A stretch of 64,000 nt of DNA from Candidatus Saccharimonadota bacterium (GTDB taxonomy: Bacteria; Patescibacteriota; Saccharimonadia; Saccharimonadales; Saccharimonadaceae): the NCBI GenBank assembly GCA_017540545.1, contig JAFYAV010000002.1, forward strand, positions 62,001 to 126,000, given 5' to 3'. The position numbers and the translations under genes are program-made. The notes below the pieces were generated by a model that made no database searches, was not told the origin of the DNA, and worked only from the letters and a program-made list of their open reading frames with translations. Below, one piece after another: positions 6,474 through 62,778 of this stretch (its first letter is position 1; every line of letters begins with the position of its first letter).

Positions 6474-6878
6474 ATGAATAAGATTAAAAAATACCTAATC
6501 ACGGCAATCGCAATCGTCGTCAGCGCTCTCTCTATATATGCGCCGCTATCTTATGCGACGGACACCTCCAGCGAAGATGCCTGCAAAATTACCGGCTATA
6601 GCGACCCTACCATCTGCGGACATAAGGGGAAGAACAATGAACAAGAAATCCAGAACCGCGTCAGAAGCGTGCTAAATACTGTCTACCTCTGGATCGGTAT
6701 TATTGCCGCCATCGTCATTGTTATCGGAGGCATCTTCTATATGATATCCATCGGCGACGCTGCCAAAATTCAAAGAGCCAAAAGTGCCATTCTGTATGCC
6801 GTTATTGGCCTCATCGTAACGCTCGCCGCCTTCGCCATTACTAACCTCGTTATTAACGCACTCGAGGGCAAACACTGA
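6474..6878 (+). CDS. T4SS pilin-like (VirB2/TrbC-like) protein, stand-alone
   Basis: A 134-residue exported protein: signal peptide (residues 1-28, cleavage expected after SYA), then EDACKITGYSDPTICGHKG with two Cys, then two hydrophobic helices (about residues 65-88 and 100-128). These are separated by a positively charged loop, GDAAKIQRAK, that should face the cytosol. This is the layout of the 'T4SS pilin' family (VirB2/TrbC-like), abundant in Saccharibacteria. Two larger paralogues with the same module, fused to other domains, lie at 9150 and 11609. It may form or line a surface conduit or pilus. The call rests on the clear similarity among the three copies plus family knowledge. Its start is 11 nt after holB. 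Confidence 0.8.
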   Translation: MNKIKKYLITAIAIVVSALSIYAPLSYATDTSSEDACKITGYSDPTICGHKGKNNEQEIQNRVRSVLNTVYLWIGIIAAIVIVIGGIFYMISIGDAAKIQRAKSAILYAVIGLIVTLAAFAITNLVINALEGKH

Positions 6879-7883: not shown

Positions 7884-7969
7884 GCTGGGATAGCGAAGTG
7901 GTCAAACGCATCAGACTGTAAATCTGCCGGCTTCGGCCTTCGTAGGTTCGACTCCTACTCCCAGCACCA
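7884..7969 (+). tRNA. tRNA-Tyr (GTA)
   Basis: An 86-nt type II tRNA. The acceptor is GCTGGGA/TCCCAGC, the anticodon loop CTGTAAA places GTA at positions 34-36, the long variable arm is built on CGGCTTCGGCC, the T-loop is GTTCGACTC, and CCA is encoded. Its 3' end (from 7952) is the start of a 90-bp direct repeat copied downstream. Confidence 0.95.
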
Positions 7970-8041
7970 AGAAAAGAATCCTAAGCATCAGCTTGGGATT
8001 TTTTCTTTGGAGTAGGAGGAGAACCGTTGGTTCGGACGAGG
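7952..8041 (+). repeat. 90-bp direct repeat, copy 1 (tRNA-Tyr 3' end plus terminator)
   Basis: It begins at the 3' half of the tRNA-Tyr T-arm, includes the acceptor strand, CCA and terminator hairpin, and ends at ...TTCGGACGAGG. Copy 2 at 8123-8212 is identical by eye, offset 171 bp. Within the repeat, GGAGTAGGAG (8009-8018) is the reverse complement of CTCCTACTCC in the tRNA 3' end (7952-7961), so the whole unit can form one long imperfect hairpin. Confidence 0.9.
7969..8007 (+). terminator. Rho-independent terminator of tRNA-Tyr
   Basis: AAGAAAAGAATCCTAAGC pairs with GCTTGGGATTTTTTCTT (one bulge, one G:U) around an ATCA loop, with a T6 run in the 3' arm. A second copy lies at about 8140-8178 in the repeat. 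Confidence 0.7.
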
Positions 8042-8122: not shown

Positions 8123-8212
8123 CTCCTACTCCCAGCACCAAGAAAAGAATCCTAAGCATCAGCTTGGGATTTTTTCTTTGGAGTAGGAGGAGAACCGTTG
8201 GTTCGGACGAGG
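8123..8212 (+). repeat. 90-bp direct repeat, copy 2 (tRNA-Tyr 3'-end remnant)
   Basis: Identical by eye to 7952-8041. It carries the last 18 nt of tRNA-Tyr, including CCA, without the rest of a tRNA, followed by the terminator hairpin and the GGAGTAGGAG inverted word. It could be an attachment-site scar or a local duplication. Confidence 0.9.
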
Positions 8213-8365: not shown

Positions 8366-9148
8366 ATGCAAGACGAGACATCCAATAGGAACTATACTCA
8401 AGGCTTCCAGGCGCCAATATCGCCAAACTTTGCAGCGCAAGAACCACCGCAGCCCAAAAGAAGCAATCGACTCCCAATTATTATAATCGCGACTACCATA
8501 GCAATCATTGCAATAATCGCCACCATTATCATTGTGCAAATCATCAAACAGCAAAACACCATTTCGATTGGCGAAAGTGGCTGGCAAGAGTTAGGCAAGA
8601 ATATCGAAGGTGACACGTATTTCACTTTTGCCGCTCAGCTAAAGAATACATCAAAAGATAGAGTCGCCAGAAATGTCGTCGTTAATGCGGAAGTGATAGA
8701 TTCGAACAATAAAAACGTCGCCACCATCGACGGCATTTGCGTCATCGATTATCTTGCACCAGAAGACATGAACTATTGCGCCGGAAGCGTGATAAAAGAC
8801 AGCGACTATAGCATCTCGAAGATTAACTTCAAGATTAATAGTAGCGCAATTTCATACGAACCTTCTATTGAAGGCGCAACTGTCTTTGGAAAAGATTACG
8901 ATATATCCGAAATCGAAGAAAACAAAGAAGATGCAGAAATTAGCTGTGCTATCAAAAATAACGCAAAATCCACCATTACAAACCCTTACGCAACTGTTGT
9001 GTTTTATAAAAACGGTAAACTAATTGGCGGGACGAGCAGCGCCCCGGAATGGGAGTCGCTGGCAGCCGGAGAAGATGGATATTTACAATTTACGGGCCTT
9101 AGCGGGATAGAATATGATGAATATAAAATAAGCGTAACGGGTAATTAA
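8366..9148 (+). CDS. Single-pass surface protein upstream of the pilin fusions, 260 aa
   Basis: A cytosolic Pro/Gln-rich N-terminus (residues 1-32) precedes one strong Ile-rich membrane helix (about 33-58) with no cleavage site. An extracytoplasmic part of about 200 residues follows. It contains two similar beta-rich halves (for example FTFAAQLKNTSKDRVARNVV and ISCAIKNNAKSTITNPYATV), resembling FxLYD/CARDB-like modules that bind partners outside the cell. I am not certain of the family. It ends 1 nt before the first pilin-fusion gene, so co-expression is very likely. The start is chosen as the first ATG after the 28-codon frame. No strong SD is present, consistent with coupling. Confidence 0.7.
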   Translation: MQDETSNRNYTQGFQAPISPNFAAQEPPQPKRSNRLPIIIIATTIAIIAIIATIIIVQIIKQQNTISIGESGWQELGKNIEGDTYFTFAAQLKNTSKDRVARNVVVNAEVIDSNNKNVATIDGICVIDYLAPEDMNYCAGSVIKDSDYSISKINFKINSSAISYEPSIEGATVFGKDYDISEIEENKEDAEISCAIKNNAKSTITNPYATVVFYKNGKLIGGTSSAPEWESLAAGEDGYLQFTGLSGIEYDEYKISVTGN

Positions 9149-9149
9149 G

Positions 9150-11072
9150 ATGAAAAGTAAAGTACTATCGACACTGATAATTGGAGGAGCGCTAATTATT
9201 GCGACCTTCCTTAATACATTCTATATCCCAACATTCGCTGCCGCCGAAGACGCATGTGGCGTCGCCGGCTATAATGATCCGCTAATCTGTGGCACCCAAA
9301 GAACTGACGAAGAGTTAGAGCTTATGCATCGCATTAGAAACGTACTAAATGTAGTGTATTCTATCGTCGGAGCCTTAGCGGCAATTGTCATTATCATTGC
9401 CGGCATTAAAATCTCCACATCGCGAGGAGATCCCGGAAAAGTAACTACCGGGAAAAACGCCATTTTCTATTCACTTTGCGGCTTATTAGTTACTCTGTGT
9501 GCTTTCGCAATTACATCTTTGGTCATCGGCGCCGTCGATGGCAATACATCGAATAAACAAATAGCGAATGACCCCAATCAAAACCGCAACGAGGTGAGGG
9601 GGATTATGATGATCAAAAAAGCATCGCTAACCGTCGGCCAAACCACCACTATCCGACCAAAAGTGATCCCAGACTATGCTACTGATCAACACCTAAATTT
9701 TAAGTCTGAGAACTCATCTATTGCGAGCGTCGACGAATACGGTACTATCACCGCCAAAAAAGTCGGCAAAACCAAAATCAACGTCTCATCTAAAAATGGC
9801 GTCTCAAACGAAGCTGAAGTTGAAGTATATGATTTTGTCGCAATTCAGAAAATTACAGTTTCACCAAGTAGCCTCGAAATTGTAGAAGGGCGCAATCAAC
9901 AACTTAAAGTCACCATCTCCCCGGCAAACGCTACAGACAAGACTCTCGAATGGCGCAGCGATAATTCGAGCATCGCCAACGTCAGTAGCAGCGGCCTCGT
10001 GAGCGCCAATAAAGTCGGCAAAACCAACATTATCGTTACGCCGCGCAATTCGAGTAACTCAGCTTATAAGATAAAAGTCGTAATCCCAGTCGAGGTAGTC
10101 AACCTCTCTCATGTCAGCTCAGGCGATGGCACGGGGACGGGTGGCGGAGATAAGAAAACCGTAGGCGCCACCACGAACGTAAACTATTCAGGCTGGCTCG
10201 ATTTTCGCGAAGAGACTCGCCAAATCGTCAAGAAAAACATGGATGGCATCAACTGGAAAAATCATGATTCATTCTTGTCCTCAAAGGGTGGATATTCGAA
10301 TTACATAAAAAGTCTCGGTGGCGTCTTTGCGAAGTTTGGCGGCACAGATTATAAAATCCCAATCAAGACCGCAGCGGACCTACAGGAGGCCGCAGAGTAC
10401 TTCTATGGTATCTTTTCAATATATGGACCAGACTACAGCGCCGGTAAACGCTGGCCAGTTTGGGGGGAAAGCCTCAACAATCACGGTGTATCAACTAAGG
10501 GTACTAAAGACGGCTTCTACTATGGTTATGATGATCGCCCATACAAATCGTCAAAATCATCACCCTGCGGACGCCATGTACAAATGTCGATAGATTATGA
10601 ATTCGGCAAGGGCTACAAGGGCGAAAGCTGTCGCAAAAATCGCATTCGTAACAACTGCAACTATAGCCAAGACAGCTTTGCTCGCCAGACCGACCTCAAA
10701 TTACCATCTTCTAGCAAAAGCTGGACTTCATCTAGCTCATGGCACCATGGCAAAACTATTAAGCATACCAGCGAGCTGCTAGTCGGCGACTGGGTTAACT
10801 ACTCCAACTGTAGCAATAAATTCAGCGACGGCTGCTGGATACATATCGCAATGGTCGGTGAAGTCTATAAAGACGTTGTAGTGCTATATGATGGCGGTGG
10901 CCGCTTTAATAGGGACAGACACTATAAGAAAATAATGTACCGCAATACCGATTCGCTAAAGAATACAACTTACAAGGATTACAAAATGTGGGCCGCCGTA
11001 AGGCTATGGGACATTGACCAAAACGTCGTCCTCGACGGCATCAACGATAAGCCAAAGAACTGGATATGGTAA
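9150..11072 (+). CDS. T4SS pilin - Big_2 x2 - NlpC/P60-like fusion protein (copy A)
   Basis: 640 residues in this order. Signal peptide (1-31, cleavage near FAAA). Pilin module (about 33-132) with the Cys pair in EDACGVAGYNDPLICG and two membrane helices flanking a basic loop, which places everything after it outside the cell. Two bacterial Ig-like Big_2 domains (about 150-228 and 231-312; for example ITVSPSSLEIVEGRNQQLKV and SIANVSSSGLVSANKVGKT). A C-terminal domain (about 345-640). This last domain has a candidate catalytic Cys503 in RNNCN, then LLVGDWV and WIHIAMVGEV with candidate His565, then LYDGGGRF, matching the Cys...GD...H order of NlpC/P60-like peptidoglycan hydrolases. A paralogue follows at 11609, and a small membrane partner overlaps its stop. 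The hydrolase role is an inference. Confidence 0.75.
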   Translation: MKSKVLSTLIIGGALIIATFLNTFYIPTFAAAEDACGVAGYNDPLICGTQRTDEELELMHRIRNVLNVVYSIVGALAAIVIIIAGIKISTSRGDPGKVTTGKNAIFYSLCGLLVTLCAFAITSLVIGAVDGNTSNKQIANDPNQNRNEVRGIMMIKKASLTVGQTTTIRPKVIPDYATDQHLNFKSENSSIASVDEYGTITAKKVGKTKINVSSKNGVSNEAEVEVYDFVAIQKITVSPSSLEIVEGRNQQLKVTISPANATDKTLEWRSDNSSIANVSSSGLVSANKVGKTNIIVTPRNSSNSAYKIKVVIPVEVVNLSHVSSGDGTGTGGGDKKTVGATTNVNYSGWLDFREETRQIVKKNMDGINWKNHDSFLSSKGGYSNYIKSLGGVFAKFGGTDYKIPIKTAADLQEAAEYFYGIFSIYGPDYSAGKRWPVWGESLNNHGVSTKGTKDGFYYGYDDRPYKSSKSSPCGRHVQMSIDYEFGKGYKGESCRKNRIRNNCNYSQDSFARQTDLKLPSSSKSWTSSSSWHHGKTIKHTSELLVGDWVNYSNCSNKFSDGCWIHIAMVGEVYKDVVVLYDGGGRFNRDRHYKKIMYRNTDSLKNTTYKDYKMWAAVRLWDIDQNVVLDGINDKPKNWIW

Positions 11073-11578
11073 AGAATATGAAAAGCACACGAATCAAAAT
11101 CATAGCAGCGTCCATTGTCGCGGTAGCCGTTCTCGCTACAATCGTCACGGTTGTCATCGTCTCTTCAAGCCCTCGCCAAATCGCGCAGACGACAGAAGAG
11201 GATCCAGTAGACAAAAATTTTACCGACATGCAAAAAGTTTACTACCACATCGAGACCGATACGCAACTAGAAGAGCTTGAAGAAGTCGCAAAGAGCATTA
11301 ATAAAGAGATTAAAGTAAAAATAGATGGCGCTTGGGGCGGAATTACTCTAGAAGATTCCGACGAATATATAACCTTCGAAATTGTCACTGACAAAGAGAG
11401 CGGATATGCCGAATCCGAAAATGTTGTTTACTATGACACCGTCAACGGCAAAGAATCGTATATCCTCCAAAGTGGCTACATCAAATATCAACATTTCAAT
11501 GGCAGCATCTCGAATGAATTTGATACCATTGAAGATGCCATTAATGACCACATATCATACACTAAGGAAACCTTGTAG
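11066..11578 (+). CDS. Small membrane-anchored partner protein of fusion A
   Basis: 170 residues: an N-terminal membrane helix (about 9-33) and an acidic extracytoplasmic domain. The second half (DSDEYITFEIV, then GYIKYQHFNG and FDTIEDAINDH) is clearly related to the gene after fusion B (13453). The ATG at 11066 overlaps the fusion stop by 7 nt (ATGGTAA). An alternative ATG at 11078 gives a tidier N-terminus (MKSTRIK). No known family is recognised. Its constant position directly after a putative wall hydrolase, its export topology and its paralogy suggest a cognate inhibitor, chaperone or accessory subunit. That is a guess from context. Confidence 0.75.
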   Translation: MVKNMKSTRIKIIAASIVAVAVLATIVTVVIVSSSPRQIAQTTEEDPVDKNFTDMQKVYYHIETDTQLEELEEVAKSINKEIKVKIDGAWGGITLEDSDEYITFEIVTDKESGYAESENVVYYDTVNGKESYILQSGYIKYQHFNGSISNEFDTIEDAINDHISYTKETL

Positions 11579-11595
11579 CAAAGAAGGGCGTAATA

Positions 11596-11601
11596 TATAA
11601 T
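11596..11601 (+). promoter_or_regulatory. -10 box (TATAAT) of fusion B, leaderless
   Basis: TATAAT ends 7 nt before the ATG at 11609, so the second fusion/partner pair has its own start of transcription as well as possible read-through from fusion A. Confidence 0.6.
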
Positions 11602-11608
11602 CATAAAC

Positions 11609-13453
11609 ATGAAGTGGCTGAGGATTCTGATATTAATAGCGCTACTAGCTCTCGGGGCGGTGAACTTTACTCCGACCAATGTCTACGCAGACGACCCCTG
11701 TAGCGTCACCGGATATTCCGACCCGCTTCTTTGCGGCACGCCAAACAGCGACGAAGAGAAAGCCGTCATCACCAAAATTCGCAATATACTCAGCGTAGTT
11801 TACCTATGGGTAGGCATTATAGCAGTTATTTTTATTGTCGTAGGCGGCGTCCTATTTATGACATCGCAGGGGGACAGCGCAAAAATACAACGCGGAAAGA
11901 GTACTATTCTGTATTCCGTTTGCGGACTCATCATCACGCTATCGGCCTTTGCTATCACCAGCCTTACCATTGGCGCCATTGAAGGTAGAACCAATGGCAG
12001 CGTCGCAAAGGAAGGGGAGCCTAGCGACCCATTCAACTCACCAGATCGCAACAAAGTTCGAGCCATCTCCACTATTGACCATACTAATGTTATTGCTGGC
12101 GGATCAATCAGAATCAAGGCAAAAGCAGTGCCAGATTACGCCACGAATAAGCAGCTGACCTACAAATCGAGTAATTCCAGCATTGCAACTATCGATAATG
12201 ATGGCAATATTAAAGCCAAACGCGAAGGCGAGGTTACAATAACTATCTCTTCGGCCGATGGCGTCAAAAAAGAAGTAAAGGTCACGGTGCTAAAACCAAT
12301 CCCCGTTACATCAATCAGAGTCAGCAAAACCGAAGTTACACTCAAAAAAGGTAAATCAACTACAGTTAAAGCGACGCCATACCCACTAAACGCCTCGGAT
12401 CGCACTGTCACCTGGGCAAGTGAAGACCCCAAAATTGCAACAGTTGACCAAACTGGTACGATTAAGGCCATCGAATCCGGAAAAACCACCTATGTGACCG
12501 TAACGGCGCAAAACAAGCAAGTATTTGCCCTCAATGAATCGCCAAACAAAATAACGCTTGCCGCCACGAAAGCCGCTAGTACACCCAAAGAAGTCAAAAC
12601 GAGAATCAAAGTCACCGTAGAAAGCGAATATTACGCCTGCCAAGGTCCGACCAGCGGTAAAAAATTCTCCGGTTACCTCGATCTTCGTCCGGTCACCAAA
12701 CAATTCGTTACACCTCACACGAAAGACTTTAAATGGGACACCTTCGATGGCTACATTAAATCAAAAGGTGGCTACACATCCTATGTAAAGAGCCTAGGCG
12801 GCATCTTTACTATATTTGCAGGCAAAGATAAGCGAATCAAAACCGTCAGCGCTTGTGACTTCCAAGCCGCGGCCGAATATACCTATGGCCTTATGACTAT
12901 CTGGGGTCCAGACTACGACAATGGTACCACTTATCACAAATGGGGCGACGAAACGCCCGATCAATCCGACGCTTATCACAACGGGGAAGGTGGACGTTAT
13001 GCGCGGGGGCATTACTCTGAACATATAGTCGACGAAAACCTATCAAGCAGCAGTAAACCAGTGCGCGTCAACTGCAACGCAAGTTGCGACACACTCTTAT
13101 CGAAAACGACACTCTGGCATGAAGAGCATATGTGCACACACTTCATATCCGGCGTGCGGTTTTCAAAAGTCGGCAAAATCACCGACGTCTCCAAGCTACA
13201 AGTCGGAGACGTCCTGCACTTCTTCGATGGTGGTGGTGGATGGCACCACGTCGCGGTAGTGGGGGAAGTATATAGTGACTACATTGTGACATACGACGGA
13301 GGCGGGCGTTTTATTAGCAATAAGAAATTCAAGTGGAAAATCCCACGCCATGGCTCTATGATAAAAAACACGACATATAGCAATTACGACATTTGGTATG
13401 GCGTTCGCTACTGGAATATTGACCAAAACCGCACTCTTGAGGGGCTTCATTGA
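11609..13453 (+). CDS. T4SS pilin - Big_2 x2 - NlpC/P60-like fusion protein (copy B)
   Basis: 614 residues with the same architecture as copy A. Signal peptide (1-27, cleavage after VYA). Pilin module (about 28-130; DDPCSVTGYSDPLLCG, two helices, basic loop GDSAKIQRGK). Two Big_2 domains (about 146-228 and 232-340; the second is preceded by ITSIRVSKTEVTLKKGKST-like sequence). A C-terminal domain (about 355-614). Candidate catalytic residues are Cys489 in VRVNCNASC, then LQVGDVLHF, His547 in WHHVAVVGEV, and TYDGGGRF. The segment SKGGYTSYVKSLGGIF and the AAAEYTYG..IWGPDY block are strongly shared with copy A, while the region between them (about 430-500) diverges. The stop overlaps the partner gene as TGATG. 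Confidence 0.75.
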   Translation: MKWLRILILIALLALGAVNFTPTNVYADDPCSVTGYSDPLLCGTPNSDEEKAVITKIRNILSVVYLWVGIIAVIFIVVGGVLFMTSQGDSAKIQRGKSTILYSVCGLIITLSAFAITSLTIGAIEGRTNGSVAKEGEPSDPFNSPDRNKVRAISTIDHTNVIAGGSIRIKAKAVPDYATNKQLTYKSSNSSIATIDNDGNIKAKREGEVTITISSADGVKKEVKVTVLKPIPVTSIRVSKTEVTLKKGKSTTVKATPYPLNASDRTVTWASEDPKIATVDQTGTIKAIESGKTTYVTVTAQNKQVFALNESPNKITLAATKAASTPKEVKTRIKVTVESEYYACQGPTSGKKFSGYLDLRPVTKQFVTPHTKDFKWDTFDGYIKSKGGYTSYVKSLGGIFTIFAGKDKRIKTVSACDFQAAAEYTYGLMTIWGPDYDNGTTYHKWGDETPDQSDAYHNGEGGRYARGHYSEHIVDENLSSSSKPVRVNCNASCDTLLSKTTLWHEEHMCTHFISGVRFSKVGKITDVSKLQVGDVLHFFDGGGGWHHVAVVGEVYSDYIVTYDGGGRFISNKKFKWKIPRHGSMIKNTTYSNYDIWYGVRYWNIDQNRTLEGLH

Positions 13454-13971
13454 TGTCTAGCAACATGACTGGATACAAATCTCGTTTCAAAAAACCTGCC
13501 ATTATCACGCTTGCCATTATCATTGTAATGGTACTAGTTGCAATCTGCGTTGTTCTAGCTTCACCAAAGAGCACACCGGAGACTGGCGATGACATTTCCT
13601 ACGATAAAACAGCCGACTTCACTAAGATCCAAAAACTCTTTACTAAATTATGCGGCAATAGAGTCGTTTTGGAATTCATGGAGAAAGATTATTTCCAGAA
13701 GGAAGATCAATTCGAAATCGAAACTTTCGCCAATCGCACCGGTCGAATTACCGTTCCAGATACCAACGAATATATCTCATACGACATCGTCAACGAAGAA
13801 GAGGATTCGCCAGACACGGCCATTAACTTCGCCTACCATGAGCCCTTCGACGACCTCGATACTTATGTGATTAAATCTGGGGAATTAACCTACCAACATT
13901 TTGACGGCCATGTCACTACCGATTACGACAACATCGAAGATGCCATCATGGCGCACCAATTATTGCAATAA
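13453..13971 (+). CDS. Small membrane-anchored partner protein of fusion B
   Basis: 172 residues: an N-terminal helix (about 15-38) and an acidic outer domain. It shares with the 11066 product the pattern NEYISYDIV, then TYVIKSGELTYQHFDG and YDNIEDAIMAH. The middle part has diverged more than the C-terminus, as specificity-determining parts often do. The start at ATG 13453 overlaps the fusion B stop (TGATG). The neighbouring TTG at 13450 is less likely. The gene ends 11 bp before the convergent lipoprotein gene, which shares its terminator region. Confidence 0.75.
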   Translation: MSSNMTGYKSRFKKPAIITLAIIIVMVLVAICVVLASPKSTPETGDDISYDKTADFTKIQKLFTKLCGNRVVLEFMEKDYFQKEDQFEIETFANRTGRITVPDTNEYISYDIVNEEEDSPDTAINFAYHEPFDDLDTYVIKSGELTYQHFDGHVTTDYDNIEDAIMAHQLLQ

Positions 13972-13991
13972 AAAATGCCCCCTAAGGGGCA
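13970..13991 (-). terminator. Terminator of the 14530 lipoprotein gene
   Basis: On the minus strand TGCCCC-TTAG-GGGGCA is followed by T6. The stop codon of the lipoprotein gene (TAG, 13984-13982) lies inside the hairpin. Confidence 0.7.
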
Positions 13992-14530
13992 GGGGCATTG
14001 CCCCATTCGTCGTATTCATCATACGACGTCACGCTAATGGTACATCCATTAACGCTAATCGCCTCAAGGCTCTCTTCGAGGCAGTTGCTGTACTCTGAAT
14101 CCGTAATGCGGTCAAGCACTGTATTCAGCTCAACTAGTAATGCTTTGGGAACCACCTGATCAGAGTAGCCCTTAACGTACGCCGTGTCAGGCTCAGAGCA
14201 TACGCACTCAATCGAACGTATGCCGTCAATTCCATCAACGATGAATATCGATCCGCTCTGCGGGCTCAACATTAAATTGACGTGCGTCTCGGCTGGCGCT
14301 TTGGCTTTTGCACTAAAGACACCATAGCCTTCGTACTGAAGCTGGCCCAGTCCGTATTCCGAAAAGCACCCCTCGAGATCAAAGGTATTGCTCTTCTGGT
14401 CATACCACGAAAGGGCACTCTTTCTCACTTCGGGCTCTTCCAGAAAAGCACGATCGACACTCTCAGTCCGGCTGCAACCACATAATCCCAAGAGTACGCT
14501 TAGGACAAATAAACAAAAGAACCTCTTCAT
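13982..14530 (-). CDS. Lipoprotein with one copy of a ~125-residue repeat domain
   Basis: 182 residues. The signal peptide MKRFFCLFVLSVLLGLCGCS carries a lipobox (LCGC, lipidated Cys at residue 19), so it should be a surface lipoprotein. The mature part holds one domain: WYDQKSNTFDLEGCFSEYG, then a beta-rich segment with IFIVDGIDGI, then VPKALLVELNTVLDRITDSE. Versions of this domain recur in the 15293 and 16828 products. I know no family name for it. The start at 14530 has a strong SD (AAGGGGGG) and a consensus promoter upstream. A longer in-frame start at 14743 would overlap the upstream gene and hide the signal peptide. Confidence 0.8.
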   Translation of the reverse strand: MKRFFCLFVLSVLLGLCGCSRTESVDRAFLEEPEVRKSALSWYDQKSNTFDLEGCFSEYGLGQLQYEGYGVFSAKAKAPAETHVNLMLSPQSGSIFIVDGIDGIRSIECVCSEPDTAYVKGYSDQVVPKALLVELNTVLDRITDSEYSNCLEESLEAISVNGCTISVTSYDEYDEWGNAPAP

Positions 14531-14567
14531 CTTAATATCCCCCCTTCTATTGAAGATTAGTAATAAC

Positions 14568-14596
14568 ATTATATAATAAACTCGCATAAATGTCAA
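14568..14596 (-). promoter_or_regulatory. Consensus sigma70 promoter of the 182-aa lipoprotein
   Basis: On the minus strand TTGACA (14596-14591), a 17-bp spacer and TATAAT (14573-14568): a perfect match, unlike the leaderless promoters of neighbouring genes. Confidence 0.8.
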
Positions 14597-14631
14597 TTCA
14601 ATTAGAGCTTCTTGCCGCTTGGCTTGCATGG

Positions 14632-14662
14632 AAAAACGCCCCTTCAGATATGAAGGGGCGTT
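14632..14662 (-). terminator. Terminator of the 16828-14703 operon
   Basis: AACGCCCCTTC (14635-14645) pairs perfectly with GAAGGGGCGTT (14652-14662) and is followed on the minus strand by T5. Confidence 0.75.
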
Positions 14663-14702
14663 AAGTACACAACAAGTAACTAAGCCTAAGCTATGGATAG
14701 TT

Positions 14703-15293
14703 CTAATACTGCTCCAGCTCTTTCCGGACGTCGCCTCGCTCAACTACAATACTGATGCCAGGGATTTTGCCGTTGAGAGCCTCGAATTTCTCATCGAGAG
14801 AATAAGGCTCTTTCTGGATCGTGTCGAAAGCTGCATCCAGCATTTCAATAACGATCCGAGGCACCTTGCCGAAAGATGTTGTTGTTATAGTCCGATACCC
14901 CATGCCGGGGTCGTAATAGACATAGACCCGCTCGCAGTCACCGACATAAAGGATATCGAACCCGCAGAGCTTGATGCCGCCACTATCCTCATAGCAGCAG
15001 ACTCCGACTTGGGACGCATAATACAGCGGCCCATCGACTTTATCCTGCCATGAGCGGTAAAAGTCTTTACTGGACCTATAGCCGACGTCCCAGCCATGTT
15101 CCGAAAAGAATCTCTCCATATCGAAAAGGCCGAGCGGATTAGTATATTCATCGATGTCGTGACCAGCCTCGACGCCTTCCGGCAGCTGAGGATCAAATCC
15201 GCCTGAAGGTCTAGCATAAAGCAAGATTCCAAGCAGCGCCGCCGCGAAGCCGACAAACACGACGGCAACGATGATACATACTTTTTTCTTCAT
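14703..15293 (-). CDS. Membrane-anchored protein with the ~125-residue repeat domain
   Basis: 196 residues: a hydrophobic N-terminal anchor (MKKKVCIIVAVVFVGFAAAL..., about residues 4-27) without a lipobox, then one copy of the repeated domain (LGLFDMERFFSEHGWDVGY, IKLCGFDILYVGD, VPRIVIEMLDAAFDTIQKE). The order F-D-hydrophobic-x-x-[FY]-[FL]...G-W followed by a PK/PR-hydrophobic helix is shared with its neighbours. It starts at ATG 15293, overlapping the stop of the 16828 gene as ATGA. AGGAGG lies 7 nt upstream, so translation does not depend only on coupling. Function unknown. Confidence 0.8.
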   Translation of the reverse strand: MKKKVCIIVAVVFVGFAAALLGILLYARPSGGFDPQLPEGVEAGHDIDEYTNPLGLFDMERFFSEHGWDVGYRSSKDFYRSWQDKVDGPLYYASQVGVCCYEDSGGIKLCGFDILYVGDCERVYVYYDPGMGYRTITTTSFGKVPRIVIEMLDAAFDTIQKEPYSLDEKFEALNGKIPGISIVVERGDVRKELEQY

Positions 15294-16828
15294 TGGTACA
15301 CCTCCTGAAATTGAACAACTTCCAGATATAAGCTATCACCGAGCCCATTTCCATCAGCGAACTCCATGAGATGATCGCCGAGCTCCGTCCTTTCATATCT
15401 CCACTCTTCAAGAGTGAAAATCAGGATGTCGAGCAGATCTCTCGAGACATTCCACTCATCGGTGGTCTCGACGATGCTCTTATCGTCAAAGCGCTTAACT
15501 ATTATTTGATATGCGGGGGAGCCGTCCTCAAACAACAGCTCCAACGAAAACGCATTAATTGCGTCTTCGTCCTCGGCCCACATATTGAGTCGCGTGTCAT
15601 AACAATAACCGACAATCATGTGATCGTCGCTCCAATCGCTATAATCGCGCAGGTCGAAGCTGTCAAACATCAGCTCCGGAACGAGTCTAGGACTCGTAGG
15701 GTCAAGCCAATCGTCTACGCCATTAACGGTAGCAATCTGCTTGCCGCCAATCTCGATGACGTGCCTAGCTTCAGGGTTCAGCATTTTAGATACTGACGTA
15801 TCTTCCATGTTGCCACAAAGCTTGACGGTCATATGCTCAACCTCAAACGCCTCCAAATCATCCTCATGACAGCCCTTTGTCACGCGATCCAGAACCGCAT
15901 TCAGTGCTACGAGTAGTGACTTCGGCGCATTCTCGCCAATCCGCGGAATCCGTACGGATTCGCTTTCAGAGACATCCCAGACACCTTCAGCTACAATACC
16001 GCCAGCATCAACGACGAACGCCGCTTCGCGCGGGTCAAGTCGCAGGTAGATTGTGCCGTTATCGGAGCTGATTTTGCGCAGTCCATAACTGGCGTACTTG
16101 ATATCGTCATCTCCCCATCCATAATTGGCAAGAAAAGCAGACAAATCGAACGTATTGCTCAATTCGTTATACCAATTACGGACTTCGTGCTCAACTTCAG
16201 GCCCCTCAGGAAACAAAGCTTCTGCCTCTTTATAGGTCAGAACACTGATTTCGGCATAGCTGGCTCTGATTGCTTCAAGGCTCTCCACGAGACTATCCGC
16301 GTCCTCAGCCTCACGAATGCAGTCAAAGACCTCATTCATGACTATGAGAAATTCCGACGAAATTTCATCGTGATCCGAGTCGACAATCCGTACTCGTTCG
16401 TGCGGATAGTCGGACTCAATCCTGACAAGCGCCAGGCCGCAGATGTCTCTGATTACAAACATCGTGTGTTCGTAGCCGTCCAGTGTCAACGACGCATGAG
16501 CACCTTCGAACAAACTGGAGTCCACTACGTACTCCCCATACTCGGGGCGTGTGTAGTTTCGATCCCAGCCGCAGGCCTCGAGATACCCCTGAAGGTCGAA
16601 GGCTCCGTAAGTATCGACCTCTGGCTCCTCGTCTGCGACAAAGAAATCATTCAGATCAACTCCGGACTCCGCTTTCGGGAATACACTACGTTCCTGCGCC
16701 TGAGCCGCACCATCCGTTTGGCGCTCAGTCTCTTGCTTATGGCAACCCATAGTACCGACAATGACAGCGATGACGCATAGCGCAACGAAAAATACTCTTA
16801 TGTACTTACAAAGGTTCGTTCTTTTCAT
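15290..16828 (-). CDS. Lipoprotein with three copies of the ~125-residue repeat domain
   Basis: 512 residues. The lipoprotein signal ends in VGTMGC (lipidated Cys about residue 29). Domain 1 (about 75-205) begins YGAFDLQGYLEACGWDRNY. Domain 2 (about 225-350) begins WYNELSNTFDLSAFLANYGW and is closest to the 182-aa lipoprotein. Domain 3 (about 385-510) begins FDSFDLRDYSDWSDD and is the most diverged. Domains 1 and 2 have a hydrophobic-V-x-D/G-I strand and an LLVALNAVLDRV-type helix. The ATG at 16828 follows GGGAGGG by 6 nt. An in-frame TTG at 16843 would put the SD inside the gene. It leads a two-gene operon with 14703. Confidence 0.8.
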   Translation of the reverse strand: MKRTNLCKYIRVFFVALCVIAVIVGTMGCHKQETERQTDGAAQAQERSVFPKAESGVDLNDFFVADEEPEVDTYGAFDLQGYLEACGWDRNYTRPEYGEYVVDSSLFEGAHASLTLDGYEHTMFVIRDICGLALVRIESDYPHERVRIVDSDHDEISSEFLIVMNEVFDCIREAEDADSLVESLEAIRASYAEISVLTYKEAEALFPEGPEVEHEVRNWYNELSNTFDLSAFLANYGWGDDDIKYASYGLRKISSDNGTIYLRLDPREAAFVVDAGGIVAEGVWDVSESESVRIPRIGENAPKSLLVALNAVLDRVTKGCHEDDLEAFEVEHMTVKLCGNMEDTSVSKMLNPEARHVIEIGGKQIATVNGVDDWLDPTSPRLVPELMFDSFDLRDYSDWSDDHMIVGYCYDTRLNMWAEDEDAINAFSLELLFEDGSPAYQIIVKRFDDKSIVETTDEWNVSRDLLDILIFTLEEWRYERTELGDHLMEFADGNGLGDSLYLEVVQFQEVYQ

Positions 16829-16867
16829 TTTTTGCCCTCCCAAAAATAGATTGAAAATAACACTTTA

Positions 16868-17079: not shown

Positions 17080-18945
17080 ATGAAGCAAAAAAATACGCGA
17101 TCATTCGATCAGAAGATAATCCGAGTTACGCTACTTGCGATACTGGATATTCTTTCTGTAGCTTTGGCTACTTTTTTAACACTATGGTTCCGCTTCGATC
17201 TTAAAAGTATTCCTGAAGGATATGTCCCAACTTTTACGGAATACATTATCTACGACGCCGCCATCGTTACCATCGTCTTCGCCGCTTTCGGCCTCTATTC
17301 ATCAGTTTGGAAATATGCCTCCATTACCGAACTAATCTCTATCGCCCTTGCTGTCGGCGTCTCGGATCTGCTCCTCTTCACCTACAAACATATGTTGCTT
17401 CTGCCCAGCCCTCGCAGCTTTTGGCTAATATTCCCAATCGTTCTCATGATACTAACCTGCAGCATTCGCTTTTCTTATCGTATTCTTCGAGAACTCATCA
17501 ACACTATCGGGTACGGCAGACGCAACAATACCATTATGGTCATCGGCGCCGGCGATGCCACGAGACTACTCATCGACGAGATGTCTCGCAATGAGGTCTA
17601 CGAAGATACTCGCATTGCCTGCATCATTGATGACGACGTGCGCAAAATTGGCACCCGCATTCGCAAAATTCCAGTAGTCGGTACGCGCAAGGACATCGAA
17701 GAAATGGCAGACAAATATCTCGTCACCGAGATCATTATCGCCATCCCGTCGGCCCGAAAAGACAATCTGGCCAGAATTGTCGCGGAATGTCAAAAAGTCG
17801 GCTGTGAAATCAAAATTATCCCCGCCGCCTACCTCGACATAGATAATGGTGAAGACATTGCTCGCCAGATTCGCCCACTGCAATACGAAGACTTCCTTGG
17901 TCGCGACCAGATCGTCGTCAATAATCAAGAAATCGTAGACAACCTCACGGGCAAGACAATTCTCGTTACGGGTGGCGGCGGCAGCATCGGATCGGAATTA
18001 TGTCGCCAAATCGCCAAGGCCAAACCAAAACTCCTTATTATCTTCGACATCTACGAAAATAATGCCTACGACATCCAGCAAGAGCTCTACCGCAATTATC
18101 CAGATCTCAATCTCGAGACTATCATCGGCTCCGTCCGCGACTATGCGCGCCTCGAAAAAGTCTTTCAAGAATTTAAACCCGAGCAAGTCTATCATGCGGC
18201 CGCCCACAAGCATGTCCCCCTCATGGAGGTTAGCCCCAACGAGGCTATCAAGAACAACTGCCTCGGAACCCTCAATACCGTCAAGCTAGCAGACAAGTAT
18301 GGCGTTAAGAAGTTCGTTCTGGTTAGTACGGACAAGGCTGTCCGCCCAACCAATATTATGGGAGCTTCTAAGCGTATCTGCGAAATGATCATTCAAACCT
18401 ACGATAAACACTCTAAAACAGATTTCGTGGCCGTACGCTTTGGTAACGTACTCGGTAGCAACGGCTCCGTGATCCCGCTCTTCTTAAAACAGATTGAGGC
18501 CGGCGGGCCCGTTACGGTCACGCACAAAAACATTACGCGCTATTTCATGACTATCCCCGAGGCCGTCAGCCTAATCTTGCAAGCGTCCGTCTATGCTGCA
18601 GGAGGGGAAATCTTCGTGCTCGATATGGGTAAACCAGTCAAAATCTACGACCTTGCCCAAAAGATTATTCGTTACAAAGGCCTCGAACCGGGTAAGGACA
18701 TCCAGATCAAAATTACCGGCCTCCGCCCCGGAGAAAAGCTCTACGAAGAGATGCTCATGGAGGAAGAGGGGCTTAAAGAAACACCAAACAAGCTCATTCA
18801 TATAGGACAACCACTCGAAATCAAAGAATCCTTCCTAAACGACCTAAATGAGCTCATCAATACCGCAGAAAACAACGTTAATAACATCAAGCAATTAACC
18901 GCTAAAATCGTTAAAACATATAAGCCAGAAAAGGAGACGCTATGA
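17080..18945 (+). CDS. Membrane nucleotide-sugar 4,6-dehydratase (PglF/CapD/FlaA1 type)
   Basis: Likely converts UDP-GlcNAc to the 4-keto-6-deoxy sugar that the next gene would aminate. 621 residues: four N-terminal membrane helices (about 18-140), a CoA-binding-like Rossmann domain (MVIGAGDATRLLIDEM, about 153-168), and an extended SDR domain with TGGGGSIGSE (about 296-305), AAHKHVPLMEVSP and STDKAVRPTNIMGASKR. In the last motif Met stands where classical SDRs have Tyr, as is usual for the PglF/FlaA1 family. First gene of the polysaccharide operon. Its stop overlaps the aminotransferase start (ATGA). No clear SD. TAAAAT boxes at 16991 and 16999 may be the promoter, leaving a leader of about 70 nt. 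Confidence 0.92.
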   Translation: MKQKNTRSFDQKIIRVTLLAILDILSVALATFLTLWFRFDLKSIPEGYVPTFTEYIIYDAAIVTIVFAAFGLYSSVWKYASITELISIALAVGVSDLLLFTYKHMLLLPSPRSFWLIFPIVLMILTCSIRFSYRILRELINTIGYGRRNNTIMVIGAGDATRLLIDEMSRNEVYEDTRIACIIDDDVRKIGTRIRKIPVVGTRKDIEEMADKYLVTEIIIAIPSARKDNLARIVAECQKVGCEIKIIPAAYLDIDNGEDIARQIRPLQYEDFLGRDQIVVNNQEIVDNLTGKTILVTGGGGSIGSELCRQIAKAKPKLLIIFDIYENNAYDIQQELYRNYPDLNLETIIGSVRDYARLEKVFQEFKPEQVYHAAAHKHVPLMEVSPNEAIKNNCLGTLNTVKLADKYGVKKFVLVSTDKAVRPTNIMGASKRICEMIIQTYDKHSKTDFVAVRFGNVLGSNGSVIPLFLKQIEAGGPVTVTHKNITRYFMTIPEAVSLILQASVYAAGGEIFVLDMGKPVKIYDLAQKIIRYKGLEPGKDIQIKITGLRPGEKLYEEMLMEEEGLKETPNKLIHIGQPLEIKESFLNDLNELINTAENNVNNIKQLTAKIVKTYKPEKETL

Positions 18946-20213
18946 AAGATATAGAACCATTTCAAAATAAAGTCTGGCTAAGCACGCCAACTATGCACGG
19001 TGAAGAGATTAGGTATATCACCGAAGCATACGAATCAAACTGGATGTCTACAGTCGGCGAGAACATTAACGAAGTCGAAAGATTAATGGCCGAAAAAATC
19101 GGCGCAAAACACGCCATTGCACTCAGCTCTGGCACAGCATCATTACATCTTGCAATCAAGCTCGCAGGAGAAAAGTTATATGGTAAGACTAAGACCAGCA
19201 AAGGTGCCCTAGCTGGCCACAAAGTATTCTGCAGCGACATGACTTTTGGCGCAACCGTCAACCCGGTCACCTATGAGGGCGGTGAACCAATCTTCATCGA
19301 CACGGAATACGACACGTGGAATATGAGCCCAGAGGCTCTATCTAGAGCTTTTGAGCTATATCCAGACGTAAGGCTTATCGTTGTCGCTCATCTTTATGGT
19401 ACCCCAGGCAAAATAGACCAAATCCGCGCCATCGCCAAAGAACACGAAGCGCTAATCGTAGAAGATGCGGCCGAATCACTTGGAGCTACGTACAAAAACA
19501 CACAAACTGGCATATTTGGAGATTTTGGCTGTATCAGTTTTAACGGTAATAAAATTATCACCGGGTCCTCCGGCGGGATGTTCTTCTGCAAAAAAGAGGA
19601 GGATGCAAATCAAATCCGCAAATGGTCCACTCAGGCCCGTGAAGACGCTCCTTGGTATCAGCACGAAGAGGTAGGCTACAACTACCGCATGAGCAACGTG
19701 ATTGCCGGCGTCGTTCGTGGCCAAATTCCATACCTAGAAGAGCATATCGCCCAAAAGAAGGCCATATACGAACGCTATAAAGAAGGTCTAAAAGATTTGC
19801 CAGTTCAGATGAATCCTTACGACGAGACAAATTCCAAGCCAAATTTCTGGCTATCATGTATGATAATCAATCCAGACGCCACGTGCAGACAAGTGCGAGA
19901 CGATCATTCGGCACTCTACATTAGTGAACCCAGAAAATCTTGTCCGACGGAAATCCTCGAAACTCTGGCAAAATATAACGCAGAAGGTCGTCCGATTTGG
20001 AAGCCAATGCATATGCAGCCAATCTACCGAAATAATGACTTTATCACAAAAGATGGCTCTAGCAGAGCTAAAACAAATGCGTATATTCCTAGCAGCGTTA
20101 CCGATATTAGCATGGATATATTCGAACGCGGGCTCTGCCTACCTTCCGACAACAAGATGACAGCCGAAGACCAAGATAAAGTAATTCAAATCATCCACGA
20201 GTGCTTCAAATAG
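18942..20213 (+). CDS. DegT/DnrJ/EryC1/StrS-family sugar aminotransferase (PglE-like)
   Basis: A PLP enzyme that transfers an amino group to the 4-keto sugar made by the preceding dehydratase. This is family knowledge combined with gene order. The 423 residues are near normal length for the family. SFNGNKIITGSSGGM contains the Schiff-base lysine (about K204), LSSGTASLHLAIKLAG is the phosphate-binding N-terminal motif, and VEDAAESLGATY is the conserved Asp segment that contacts the PLP ring nitrogen. The C-terminus has the expected KPMHMQPIY. It overlaps the dehydratase by 4 nt and is followed 2 nt later by the phosphoglycosyltransferase. Confidence 0.93.
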   Translation: MKDIEPFQNKVWLSTPTMHGEEIRYITEAYESNWMSTVGENINEVERLMAEKIGAKHAIALSSGTASLHLAIKLAGEKLYGKTKTSKGALAGHKVFCSDMTFGATVNPVTYEGGEPIFIDTEYDTWNMSPEALSRAFELYPDVRLIVVAHLYGTPGKIDQIRAIAKEHEALIVEDAAESLGATYKNTQTGIFGDFGCISFNGNKIITGSSGGMFFCKKEEDANQIRKWSTQAREDAPWYQHEEVGYNYRMSNVIAGVVRGQIPYLEEHIAQKKAIYERYKEGLKDLPVQMNPYDETNSKPNFWLSCMIINPDATCRQVRDDHSALYISEPRKSCPTEILETLAKYNAEGRPIWKPMHMQPIYRNNDFITKDGSSRAKTNAYIPSSVTDISMDIFERGLCLPSDNKMTAEDQDKVIQIIHECFK

Positions 20214-20215
20214 AC

Positions 20216-20854
20216 ATGGCCAAATACGAGAATCAGCACAAGCCATACGGCCCATACGAAAAATATTTTAAACGACCCCTCGATTTTCTTTTTTCGTTGC
20301 TAGCCCTGATTATTCTTTCACCAATATTGCTAATTACCTACATACTCGTAATTATATTTTTAGGTTTCCCGGGCATCTTCAAACAGCCGCGTCCGGGCAG
20401 AGACGAAAAAATCTTTAACCTCTACAAGTTTCGCACCATGACAAATACAAAAGACAAAAACGGAAAACTGTTACCAGACGAGAAGCGCTTAACGAAGTTT
20501 GGTAAATTTCTACGCTCCACGTCCTTAGATGAATTACCAGAACTTTTTAATATCCTAATTGGCGATATGAGTTTTATCGGACCGCGACCGCTTCTAGTCG
20601 ATTATTTACCACGCTATAATATAAAACAACGACGCCGCCACGAAATCAGGCCTGGCCTTACTGGCCTAGCGCAAGTGTCTGGACGTAATTCCATACCATG
20701 GCAAAAACGATTCGACATAGATATACTATATGTCGACCGTATTACTTTCTTACAAGATTCATCCATTATACTAAAAACTATCAGTCTAGTTCTGAAACGA
20801 AAAAACATTAACTCCAACACTTCCGCAACCATGGAAGAATTTATGGGAAATTAA
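20216..20854 (+). CDS. Priming undecaprenyl-phosphate sugar phosphotransferase (PglC/WcaJ type)
   Basis: Starts glycan assembly by moving a sugar-1-phosphate onto undecaprenyl phosphate at the inner leaflet. 212 residues: a short cytosolic start, one hydrophobic re-entrant helix (about 20-48), then the conserved catalytic part. That part includes KQPRPGRDEKIFNLYKFRTM, TSLDELPELFNILIGDMSFI, GPRPLL and RPGLTGLAQVSGRN. The short form without extra N-terminal helices resembles PglC. The start at 20216 is preferred over an in-frame codon at 20201, which would overlap the aminotransferase by 13 nt. Together with the two preceding genes it forms a classic amino-sugar priming set. Confidence 0.93.
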   Translation: MAKYENQHKPYGPYEKYFKRPLDFLFSLLALIILSPILLITYILVIIFLGFPGIFKQPRPGRDEKIFNLYKFRTMTNTKDKNGKLLPDEKRLTKFGKFLRSTSLDELPELFNILIGDMSFIGPRPLLVDYLPRYNIKQRRRHEIRPGLTGLAQVSGRNSIPWQKRFDIDILYVDRITFLQDSSIILKTISLVLKRKNINSNTSATMEEFMGN

Positions 20855-60345: not shown

Positions 60346-62778
60346 ATGGATAATAGCTCTAGCCTTCAACCCATCAATCAGCCAACACCTGAAACAAACA
60401 TTTTCAACGAACCAATCTCGACACCGAATTCTACACCGACCACACCCACGACAGCTACAGCTAAAAAATCCCACAAAGGCACAATCATTATCGTCATTAT
60501 CGTTGCCATCATCTTCATCGCTGGTATTGTAGCGCTAATCATTTTGCTTCCAAAACTATTCGGTCAGAACGAACAAATCGACGACAATATCAGCGTCGCT
60601 GAACCCGCCAAAGAAACTCTAGATGTTTACGATAATCTAGCCATCGACTACAAAAGCGGGGGCATTGATATTGCAGAATATTTCAAGCAACTCGTTTATC
60701 TCGAAATCGACAGCAGCAAAGCCGACAAAGGCTACCAAACCGAATACGACCATCCCGGCATCAGTCATCGCGACGAAATTCTGCGCATCATCGAAGAAAA
60801 TTCTAGCAAATTAGATAAAGATCTCGTCAAACAATACATCCTTACGTTAACTCAAAAAAGTTTCGTCTACGGCGCCGAAAACGAGACAACGTCAAGCGCC
60901 GACGACGTCATACTTGCCGACAGCGAAGAGGAAGAACGCTCATACAAAATGCATTATTTTGACCGCGCAAGACTATCCAAAAATAAGCATTTCATCATTT
61001 GGTATACCGAAAAAGGCGAAGATAAAGCCACTCAATCCCAAATCGACACTATCGACGATACGCTCGAAAATACCATTAGTGCATACGGTAATACTTTTGG
61101 CGAAAAATACCGTTTCGATCCCGAGATAACTACCGCAAGTCCACAATTAGCAAAAGGCGCAAACAAAATCCTTCGCGAGAACGGCATTCCAGAAAATACC
61201 TGGAAAAACACTATGAATGTTTATGTATATGACACAAAAAGCGAATCCGTGCTAGGATACTGGCTGGTCGGCAAAGCTAACACGGACAATATTATCCTGC
61301 GTTTCGTCGTTGATGCCGCAATGAAAGAAGATTATCTCACTCGACCATATATAGTTCTAAACAAACGACTCTTAAATAATACGGTCGATTTCAAACAAAT
61401 CGTAAGCCATGAACTTTTCCATCACTACCAATATAGCTATTGTATGGCTAAAACAAATGACGCCTGCCCAGACAGCCAAGATTTCTCATATTCGGAAATG
61501 GCCGCCAATTACGCCAGCGCCACGATTCATGGATACTCAAAAAATTCTTTCCTATCAAACTGGAGTAATATACATCGTGAAGAAATTCACAATGGCCTTC
61601 TAAATATAATTAGCGGCGACTTAACTGGGTATGGTAGTTTTCCATACCTAGCAGCCTATACAAAATATGGCTCAAATCAAACCGTCATGGCTGCTCATTC
61701 GCGTTCAAATCCACTCGCATACCTCGAAGAAAAGGCCGGCACATCCAATATGCAAAAAATCGCCGCCGCAAGCGCGTACTACACTATCTCAAATAGTTAC
61801 GACGGCGTAAATGCTAGCAGTGACGAGTCAGTTCAGCCAGTTATTAACGAGTTCGAACTTGAAGGCGAAGCTACAATTTCGCTTGAGCCAGGCGCCATCA
61901 GCTTCTATAAACTCGACCAAAACGCCACTATCAAACTAAACAGCGCCAATGCAGTCTACGTTCTTATTGGCCAAAAAGGAAATAGTTACCAAAAAATTAA
62001 CGAATATTACGACTCCAGCCAAAGCGTCCAAACTGAAGAATGCGCCAAAAACCACGACACATGCTATCTGGCCGTCGCAAACCCATCCCTCACCAGCGCA
62101 ACGACCATCGAAGCCGACTATGACAATCTCGACAATAACGGCAAGATTTTCCGTACGCGCTACCAAAACTACAAGACCAAAATTGTTCTCAATTTGAGCA
62201 TGAACGGGATTGACGCCAGTACTACCGCCGAAGGCGTTGTTGATGAGTTGCATCAGCGCCAACACCTCAATCAAAAAGTAAACGCCGGCATTGGCGGCGT
62301 CTCCATGGATTGCGAACTCTATACCGACTTTTACCACGGCGTCTCTTATATGTCGCGGCCAAAGCTCGGATTCGAAGGCATAACTGGTCTCGACATTCCG
62401 TCCAACACGATGCCCGAATGGACGAAGAGCGAAGACGTAAGCGCGCAAACTAACCTCGGCATTCTTGCGCAAAAGCTCGAAAAAGGCGACAACGTCGAGA
62501 AGATTGACGACGCTCACTATAAGCTCACAATTAGTGCCGCCGACCTAAAAAGCTATATGTCCATGAGTGGCGACAGCACAAGCAAAATCTCCCTCCCTAA
62601 AGATGGCATACCGGCCGAAATTAGCGTCGAAAACGGCTATATTACCAACGCCAAATATGATTTCAGCGGTATTGCTGGCATCGATAAATTCACAGCCAAC
62701 GTATCCTTCTCCGACTACAACAAAAACGAATCCGTGTATATTCCGCTCAGCGTCGTTCGTAACGCGAAAACAGAATAA
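60346..62778 (+). CDS. Membrane-anchored HExxH metallopeptidase-like protein, 810 aa
   Basis: A cytosolic Pro/Thr-rich start (1-42), a membrane helix (about 45-70, IIIVIIVAIIFIAGIVALII), then a large outer region. KQIVSHELFHHYQYSYC places HELFH at residues 355-359, and SYSEMAANYASATIH about 25-35 residues later gives a Glu in the place expected for a gluzincin third ligand. The C-terminal third (about 500-810) is beta-rich, with a segment from about 615 resembling a lipid-binding LolA/LppX-like sheet (weak). A surface protease acting on host or envelope proteins is plausible. The family is not recognised. Only 5 nt separate it from hisS. Confidence 0.65.
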   Translation: MDNSSSLQPINQPTPETNIFNEPISTPNSTPTTPTTATAKKSHKGTIIIVIIVAIIFIAGIVALIILLPKLFGQNEQIDDNISVAEPAKETLDVYDNLAIDYKSGGIDIAEYFKQLVYLEIDSSKADKGYQTEYDHPGISHRDEILRIIEENSSKLDKDLVKQYILTLTQKSFVYGAENETTSSADDVILADSEEEERSYKMHYFDRARLSKNKHFIIWYTEKGEDKATQSQIDTIDDTLENTISAYGNTFGEKYRFDPEITTASPQLAKGANKILRENGIPENTWKNTMNVYVYDTKSESVLGYWLVGKANTDNIILRFVVDAAMKEDYLTRPYIVLNKRLLNNTVDFKQIVSHELFHHYQYSYCMAKTNDACPDSQDFSYSEMAANYASATIHGYSKNSFLSNWSNIHREEIHNGLLNIISGDLTGYGSFPYLAAYTKYGSNQTVMAAHSRSNPLAYLEEKAGTSNMQKIAAASAYYTISNSYDGVNASSDESVQPVINEFELEGEATISLEPGAISFYKLDQNATIKLNSANAVYVLIGQKGNSYQKINEYYDSSQSVQTEECAKNHDTCYLAVANPSLTSATTIEADYDNLDNNGKIFRTRYQNYKTKIVLNLSMNGIDASTTAEGVVDELHQRQHLNQKVNAGIGGVSMDCELYTDFYHGVSYMSRPKLGFEGITGLDIPSNTMPEWTKSEDVSAQTNLGILAQKLEKGDNVEKIDDAHYKLTISAADLKSYMSMSGDSTSKISLPKDGIPAEISVENGYITNAKYDFSGIAGIDKFTANVSFSDYNKNESVYIPLSVVRNAKTE

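Follow-up and report, generated by a model that had tools for sequence, protein, structure and literature searches.

Tandem fusions of a type IV secretion pilin hairpin, Big_2 domains and a predicted endolysin-type hydrolase in a Saccharibacterial genome

Two fusion genes and their membrane partners

The 64-kb stretch of DNA analysed here (the window; positions 62,001 to 126,000 of contig JAFYAV010000002.1) belongs to a Candidatus Saccharimonadota bacterium whose 795 kb genome is assembled in two contigs, C1 and C2, with the window on C2. It carries two adjacent genes, W1 and W2, each encoding a fusion protein in which a signal peptide is followed by a hairpin of the T4SS_pilin family (PF18895; T4SS, type IV secretion system), two Big_2 domains and a C-terminal domain (C-domain) predicted to be a papain-like hydrolase of the endolysin type. 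Each fusion gene is paired with the gene of a small membrane protein, referred to below as the partner. The features are as follows, with lengths in amino acids (aa).

9150..11072, + strand: W1, 640 aa; signal peptide, T4SS_pilin hairpin (aa 62-124), two Big_2 domains (the second at aa 232-306) and predicted papain-like, endolysin-type C-domain (aa 339-640; Cys503, His565)
10164..11069, + strand: C-terminal endolysin-type domain of W1, assigned by homology to W2 and by invariant motifs
11066..11578, + strand: W1 partner, 170 aa; predicted to span the membrane once (N-in/C-out) and to have an alpha/beta outer domain
11609..13453, + strand: W2, 614 aa; signal peptide, T4SS_pilin hairpin (aa 48-118), two Big_2 domains (the second at aa 232-302) and predicted papain-like, endolysin-type C-domain (Cys489, His547)
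12644..13450, + strand: C-terminal endolysin-type domain of W2, the domain used for structure prediction
13450..13971, + strand: W2 partner, 173 aa; single-pass protein, paralogue of the W1 partner

Both fusion reading frames are open and uninterrupted, and their pilin and Big_2 matches lie above the Pfam cut-offs. T4SS_pilin is matched by W1 with an E-value of 1.3e-9 (38.4 bits) and by W2 with 6.7e-9 (36.1 bits), against a gathering score of 26.6, and Big_2 is matched in two stretches of each protein (3.5e-29 in W1 and 3.1e-28 in W2). Each hairpin has two helices and a charged inner loop, with hydrophobic segments at about residues 68-86 and 109-127 in W1 and 66-84 and 104-122 in W2. The two proteins are 39% identical over their whole length, and the C-domains, which are ~270-300 aa long, are 35% identical over 293 aa (E 5e-55). 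An earlier reading of the window from its letters alone (the sequence-only reading) had proposed this module order for an adjacent gene pair and had named the same four Cys and His residues; both the order and the residues were found as described, and its placement of the C-terminus outside the cell is what the predicted hairpin topology implies. It had also described an overlap of each fusion gene with a downstream gene for a paralogous single-pass protein, and this holds equally: the overlaps are 7 nt (W1) and 4 nt (W2), the partners share 30% identity (E 1e-24), and each has a single strong hydrophobic segment, which is N-terminal. The arrangement of fusion and partner is found again in other genomes and is therefore neither chance nor an assembly artefact.

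A C-terminal domain related to endolysins

By its predicted fold and its homology to endolysins, the C-domain is a putative papain-like (NlpC/P60-CHAP-type) wall hydrolase, in agreement with the NlpC/P60-like assignment of the sequence-only reading. The AlphaFold2 model of the W2 C-domain, built from an alignment of 12 sequences, has a predicted template modelling score (pTM) of 0.84 and a mean predicted local distance difference test score (pLDDT) of 78; in this model Cys144 (domain numbering) opens a helix and His202 lies within a strand. Since Foldseek alone gave no match at E < 0.001 for the C-domain model or for the partner model, the rows of the VIA structural comparison were judged by their family composition and not by Z alone. 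Nearly all of the 50 rows listed for the C-domain fall among papain-like or NlpC/P60 hydrolases and proteins related to them, the best among those listed being the type VI secretion system (T6SS) amidase effector Tse1/Tae1 (Z 8.1) and the Clostridioides difficile autolysin Acd24020 (Z 8.0). Cys144, a VGD motif, His202 and a VGE motif are invariant in all 20 aligned C-domains from Saccharibacteria and Bacillota, so that the conservation of Cys and His expected earlier is seen throughout. Profile comparisons point in the same direction, although the C-domain matches printed with scores do not reach the curated NlpC/P60-CHAP cut-offs: Pfam CHAP matches W2 only, under threshold (E 0.019), and the best member of set A3 matches NLPC_P60 at E 6.4e-4. 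In an hhalign comparison with four NlpC/P60 domains, the alignment was confined to the VGD...HVA stretch (78.9%). A sequence search of the PDB with the C-domain profile returned antibody-like chance matches only.

Relatives of the C-domain with 30-36% identity are found on nine viral contigs of IMG/VR (L172-L180), and the catalytic Cys and His are present in these as well. In the viral proteins the C-domain homologue is N-terminal, and in the five read with Pfam CW_7 wall-binding repeats are C-terminal (up to 7e-18). Where these proteins were compared with PHROGs, it was their C-terminal part that matched lysis families. In both viral contigs checked, L175 and L179, a gene for a lysin with GH25 and CHAP domains lies one to two genes away, and the relative on L179 itself matches CHAP at E 1.8e-4, below the cut-off. 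A protein from Clostridia has the C-domain fused with M23-like and Glucosaminidase domains. Because of this viral CW_7 and lysis context and the fusion in Clostridia, the C-domain is assigned by homology to the endolysin-type hydrolases, and sequence comparison supports both this relationship and the conservation of the catalytic pair. A comparison with 50,697 named phage records gave no match to the family of C-domain and CW_7 endolysins, the C-domain was not found in the plasmids searched, and the family appears to be an undescribed one.

The distribution of the C-domain is patchy. Among 101 genomes of relatives, the 8 that have it belong to a single genus; it also occurs in Saccharibacteria from goat and sheep gut and in Bacillota assemblies. 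Rumen Candidatus Saccharibacteria assemblies are among the close relatives of the window's genome within its genus. A draw of 380 genomes across the phylum gave a full C-domain match in the window's own genome only. Weak matches in G257, G547 and G496 were discarded, since they consist of a generic CHAP-like stretch and Mfd-like proteins.

Module exchange and the pilin setting

Among the homologues compared, the pilin and Big_2 module is the constant part of these proteins and the cysteine-peptidase end is exchanged. Within the same genus, L162 and two L166 genes carry the pilin and Big_2 module with C39-like or weakly NlpC/P60-like ends, and in Bacilli (L059-L064, L097) the C-domain comes directly after the T4SS_pilin hairpin, without Big_2. 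A domain exchange between Saccharibacteria and Bacilli is visible inside a single Saccharibacterial gene, L038, the Big_2 part of which is 55% identical to that of W2 while its C-domain is 60% identical to that of the Bacilli pilin fusion L097b and only 29% to that of W2. Contamination or misassembly was rejected for L038: rpoA on its contig is 98% identical to that of the window's genome, 97-99% to those of the genus and ~40% to those of Bacilli, and the contig is therefore Saccharibacterial. In the trees L038 is nested in the Bacilli group and joined to L097b at 98/86 and 96/86. The 13 remaining Saccharibacterial domains cluster together, as do the viral domains in a group of their own, and at least two label changes are required.

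Elsewhere in the window's genome, a gene at L040:7631-8584 (- strand) joins T4SS_pilin (1.9e-10) to an ELLD endolysin-like domain (5.6e-11), with no visible signal peptide. It is convergent with a gene at L040:5099-7627 (+ strand) whose product has Big_2, GH114 and a weakly matching pilin-like hairpin, and likely homologues of the latter protein adjoin fusion pairs in related genomes.

The fused hairpins have a mean identity of 44% to the stand-alone pilins of their own genome, which among themselves are 42% identical; this similarity fits an assembly of the fusions with stand-alone pilins. One such pilin is encoded in the window.

6474..6878, + strand: stand-alone T4SS_pilin protein, 134 aa; 51% identical to the W1 hairpin and 59% to the W2 hairpin

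It comes after a DNA polymerase delta-prime-like gene, and related genomes hold a fusion at that site. The T4SS core of the organism, near dnaA on contig C1, comprises a pilin array, VirB6-like, PrgI-like and VirB4 proteins and a separate Phage_lysozyme2 protein encoded two genes from virB4. A virB4-type ATPase is present in all 14 searched genomes that carry the C-domain. In one order of Bacilli (that of G103), pilin matches occur in 29 of 35 genomes with virB4 versus one of five without it (Fisher p 0.01), and several pilin-bearing secreted proteins are encoded ~4-5 kb from virB4. In the small-genome gut Bacilli with the C-domain there are several pilin-hairpin proteins each, with ends that match NlpC/P60, Amidase_3, Glucosaminidase, phosphodiester glycosidase and, weakly, D-Ala-D-Ala carboxypeptidase-like or esterase-like domains. 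The secreted proteins of the order of G103 (L139-L147) have variable outer domains and the pilin hairpin at the end. According to a 2025 review, VirB2 pilins are absent from Gram-positive T4SSs except those of Patescibacteria (PMC12857230); judged from the present sequences, VirB2-like pilins look commoner in Gram-positive T4SSs than stated there.

The surroundings of the fusion genes hold several further features.

8366..9148, + strand: FxLYD-domain single-pass protein, one base upstream of W1

In five related genomes the W1-like fusion is directly preceded by a gene of this FxLYD type, which encodes 245-246 aa with a similar C-terminus. Between a tRNA-Tyr gene and the FxLYD gene there is a perfect 90-base direct repeat (7952-8041 and 8123-8212, 171 bases apart), and in another genome a related repeat, again in two copies, stands immediately before the gene of a partner homologue (L163:7323-7570). 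Downstream of W2, on the - strand, 13982-16843 holds a cluster of secreted or lipoprotein-like proteins of 253, 196 and 517 aa, of which the 253 and 517 aa proteins share repeated segments (33% over 141 aa) without a Pfam family. A surface-sugar locus starts at 17080-20854 with genes for a UDP-GlcNAc 4,6-dehydratase-like protein, a LegC-like aminotransferase and a sugar transferase.

Proposed role, rival explanations and known systems

With modest confidence, we take W1 and W2 to be surface-displayed peptidoglycan hydrolases built on a T4SS pilin, with a recombined module, that would cut the wall at a contact site. The proteins would be exported by Sec. The pilin hairpin would be embedded in the membrane, its two ends facing outwards, and would serve as a minor subunit of the T4SS pilus or its base, or else as a pilin-like anchor; a stalk would be formed by the two Big_2 domains, and the papain-like C-domain of the endolysin family would cut cell-wall peptides close to the contact site. 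Since the pilin and Big_2 module has recombined with various cysteine-peptidase domains, an epibiont could match or change the wall that it attacks. For the module order, the predicted hairpin topology, the enzyme family, the conserved catalytic Cys and His, the domain exchange and the co-occurrence with virB4, this reading draws on sequence or homology; polymerisation into or association with a pilus, an enzyme located outside the cell, hydrolysis and the host wall as its target are what we infer.

Several points weigh against the proposal of contact-site hydrolases. A structural Z of ~8 from a 12-sequence alignment is borderline by itself. Most Bacilli fusions are without Big_2 and their pilin half is without a signal peptide, so that the shared architecture may be partly convergent. 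W1 and W2 lie apart from virB4, with the T4SS core on the other contig, a bulky C-terminus may block pilus packing, and the organism could apply the enzymes to its own wall. The rival explanation that survives best, which we consider unlikely though by no means negligible, takes up the last of these: the hairpin would be an anchor only, and the proteins would be autolysins that remodel the organism's own wall during division or the insertion of surface machines, with the partner as regulator, in the manner of the adaptors or inhibitors known for MepS, CwlO and LytE. The distance of the fusions from virB4 suits such a role, as do the autolysins among the structural neighbours and the Bacilli fusions that stand without a partner beside housekeeping genes (L061 adjoins a ribosomal protein gene). 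Against it, the fused hairpins have kept a pilin-level similarity (44%, versus 42% among stand-alone pilins), an enzyme that is patchy (8 of the 101 genomes) and swapped is unlike a housekeeping autolysin, and the C-domain family also occurs in viral lysis proteins.

Less probable again is an effector-like role, in which competitors or hosts would be attacked with the C-domain and the partner would be its immunity protein. A constant module with exchanged enzyme ends would suit this, as would Tse1/Tae1 among the closest fold rows and a partner predicted on the enzyme's side of the membrane. In the model of the partner outer domain most blocks from residue 51 on have a confidence >90, and the 13 rows of highest Z, all for the beta-lactamase inhibitor BLIP, would point the same way, but at Z 5.4-6.2 and root-mean-square deviations of 4.8-6.1 Å they are too weak to name the fold. 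Distances among partners track those among C-domains (r 0.72, p < 1e-4, 11 pairs), but the correlation drops to r 0.41 once near copies are left out and, if the pairs are further restricted to the six of the same genus, to r 0.40 (p 0.10), and the pilin hairpin co-varies as well; the co-variation is thus significant and not enzyme-specific. The covalent hairpin anchor also speaks against injection.

The occurrence of the partner argues further against an immunity function. It lies directly 3' of 17 of the 21 Saccharibacterial fusions, at most 8 bases from their stop codon, and for these the gene pair that the sequence-only reading expected across Saccharibacteria is indeed present; beside the other four (G005a, G026a, G031a and L038) no partner was seen, and none adjoins the Bacilli fusions whose gene neighbours were examined. 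Partner relatives at E 0.001 occur in 57 of the 101 genomes, many as short matches round the membrane helix, and strong relatives are confined to the same genus. Those examined adjoin either giant surface proteins (~1,400-1,545 aa if complete), which are without a C-domain-type enzyme, or C39-like or NlpC-like pilin fusions. The partner is neither obligatory nor enzyme-specific, as an immunity protein would be, and the strictly cognate inhibitor with paired specificity proposed from the sequence alone was rejected on these grounds. A general maturation or assembly role fits better, because the relatives adjoin giant surface proteins and other fusions. Most likely the partner is a membrane-bound factor that helps large surface proteins to mature or assemble, and a dedicated inhibitor is less likely. 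Outside the window, the same genome encodes a 309 aa partner-like protein immediately 5' of the gene for a surface protein of 1,545 aa with no Pfam domains (L167:6274-11852).

That the C-domain does not cut and acts as a wall-binding adhesin is very improbable: non-catalytic NlpC/P60 domains of the RipD type are known and appear in the fold rows, and Big_2 stalks are common in adhesins, but Cys and His are invariant in the aligned Bacilli and Saccharibacterial domains and present in the viral relatives.

A wider proposal, put forward tentatively, is that the T4SS pilins of Saccharibacteria and small-genome gut Bacilli form a modular platform, which would carry interchangeable phage-related hydrolases at the contact pilus or its base, with enzymes traded between the phyla. 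If so, the machine that docks on a neighbour would also open its wall. This bears on how Patescibacteria pass through the wall of the host cell. In W1 and W2, which are directly testable surface proteins, pilin and putative hydrolase form a single polypeptide, and pilin-stalk-enzyme proteins of this kind could be the means by which such epibionts get through the wall of a neighbour.

Taken singly, the T4SS_pilin family, the papain-like fold and wall hydrolases linked to T4SSs are already known. In the literature covered, largely without subscription papers, no report of pilin-hydrolase fusions was found, nor a description of the endolysin family or of its exchange between Saccharibacteria and Bacilli. 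The VirB1-like T4SS hydrolases, such as TraG of pIP501, PrgK and CwlT, combine a lytic transglycosylase with a CHAP or NlpC/P60 domain. W1 and W2 have in common with them a wall hydrolase that possibly serves a monoderm T4SS, but they are fused to a pilin and not encoded with the T4SS core, and Pfam scans found no lytic transglycosylase domain in them. Phage endolysins with CW_7 (Cpl-7) repeats have a catalytic domain homologous to the C-domain, whereas W1 and W2 carry the pilin and Big_2 parts in place of these repeats, as read with Pfam, and are predicted to be held in the membrane and not to be lysis proteins. The T6SS amidase effectors Tse1/Tae1 share a papain-like fold with the C-domain and differ in delivery; the sequence search of the PDB found no relation between them. 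The likeness of the partner outer domain to BLIP is below the level for claiming a shared fold, and no sequence relation was found between the two. The VirB2-like pilins of Patescibacteria, which form PF18895 arrays, are a further close counterpart. The passages searched of the survey describing them state that most genomes with VirB2 pilins are without a VirB1 wall hydrolase, and do not mention pilin-enzyme fusions (PMC12102498). As far as these passages go, W1 and W2 share with such pilins the hairpin family, the signal peptide and their occurrence in Saccharibacteria, and differ from them in that the hairpin bears ~500 aa of stalk and enzyme.

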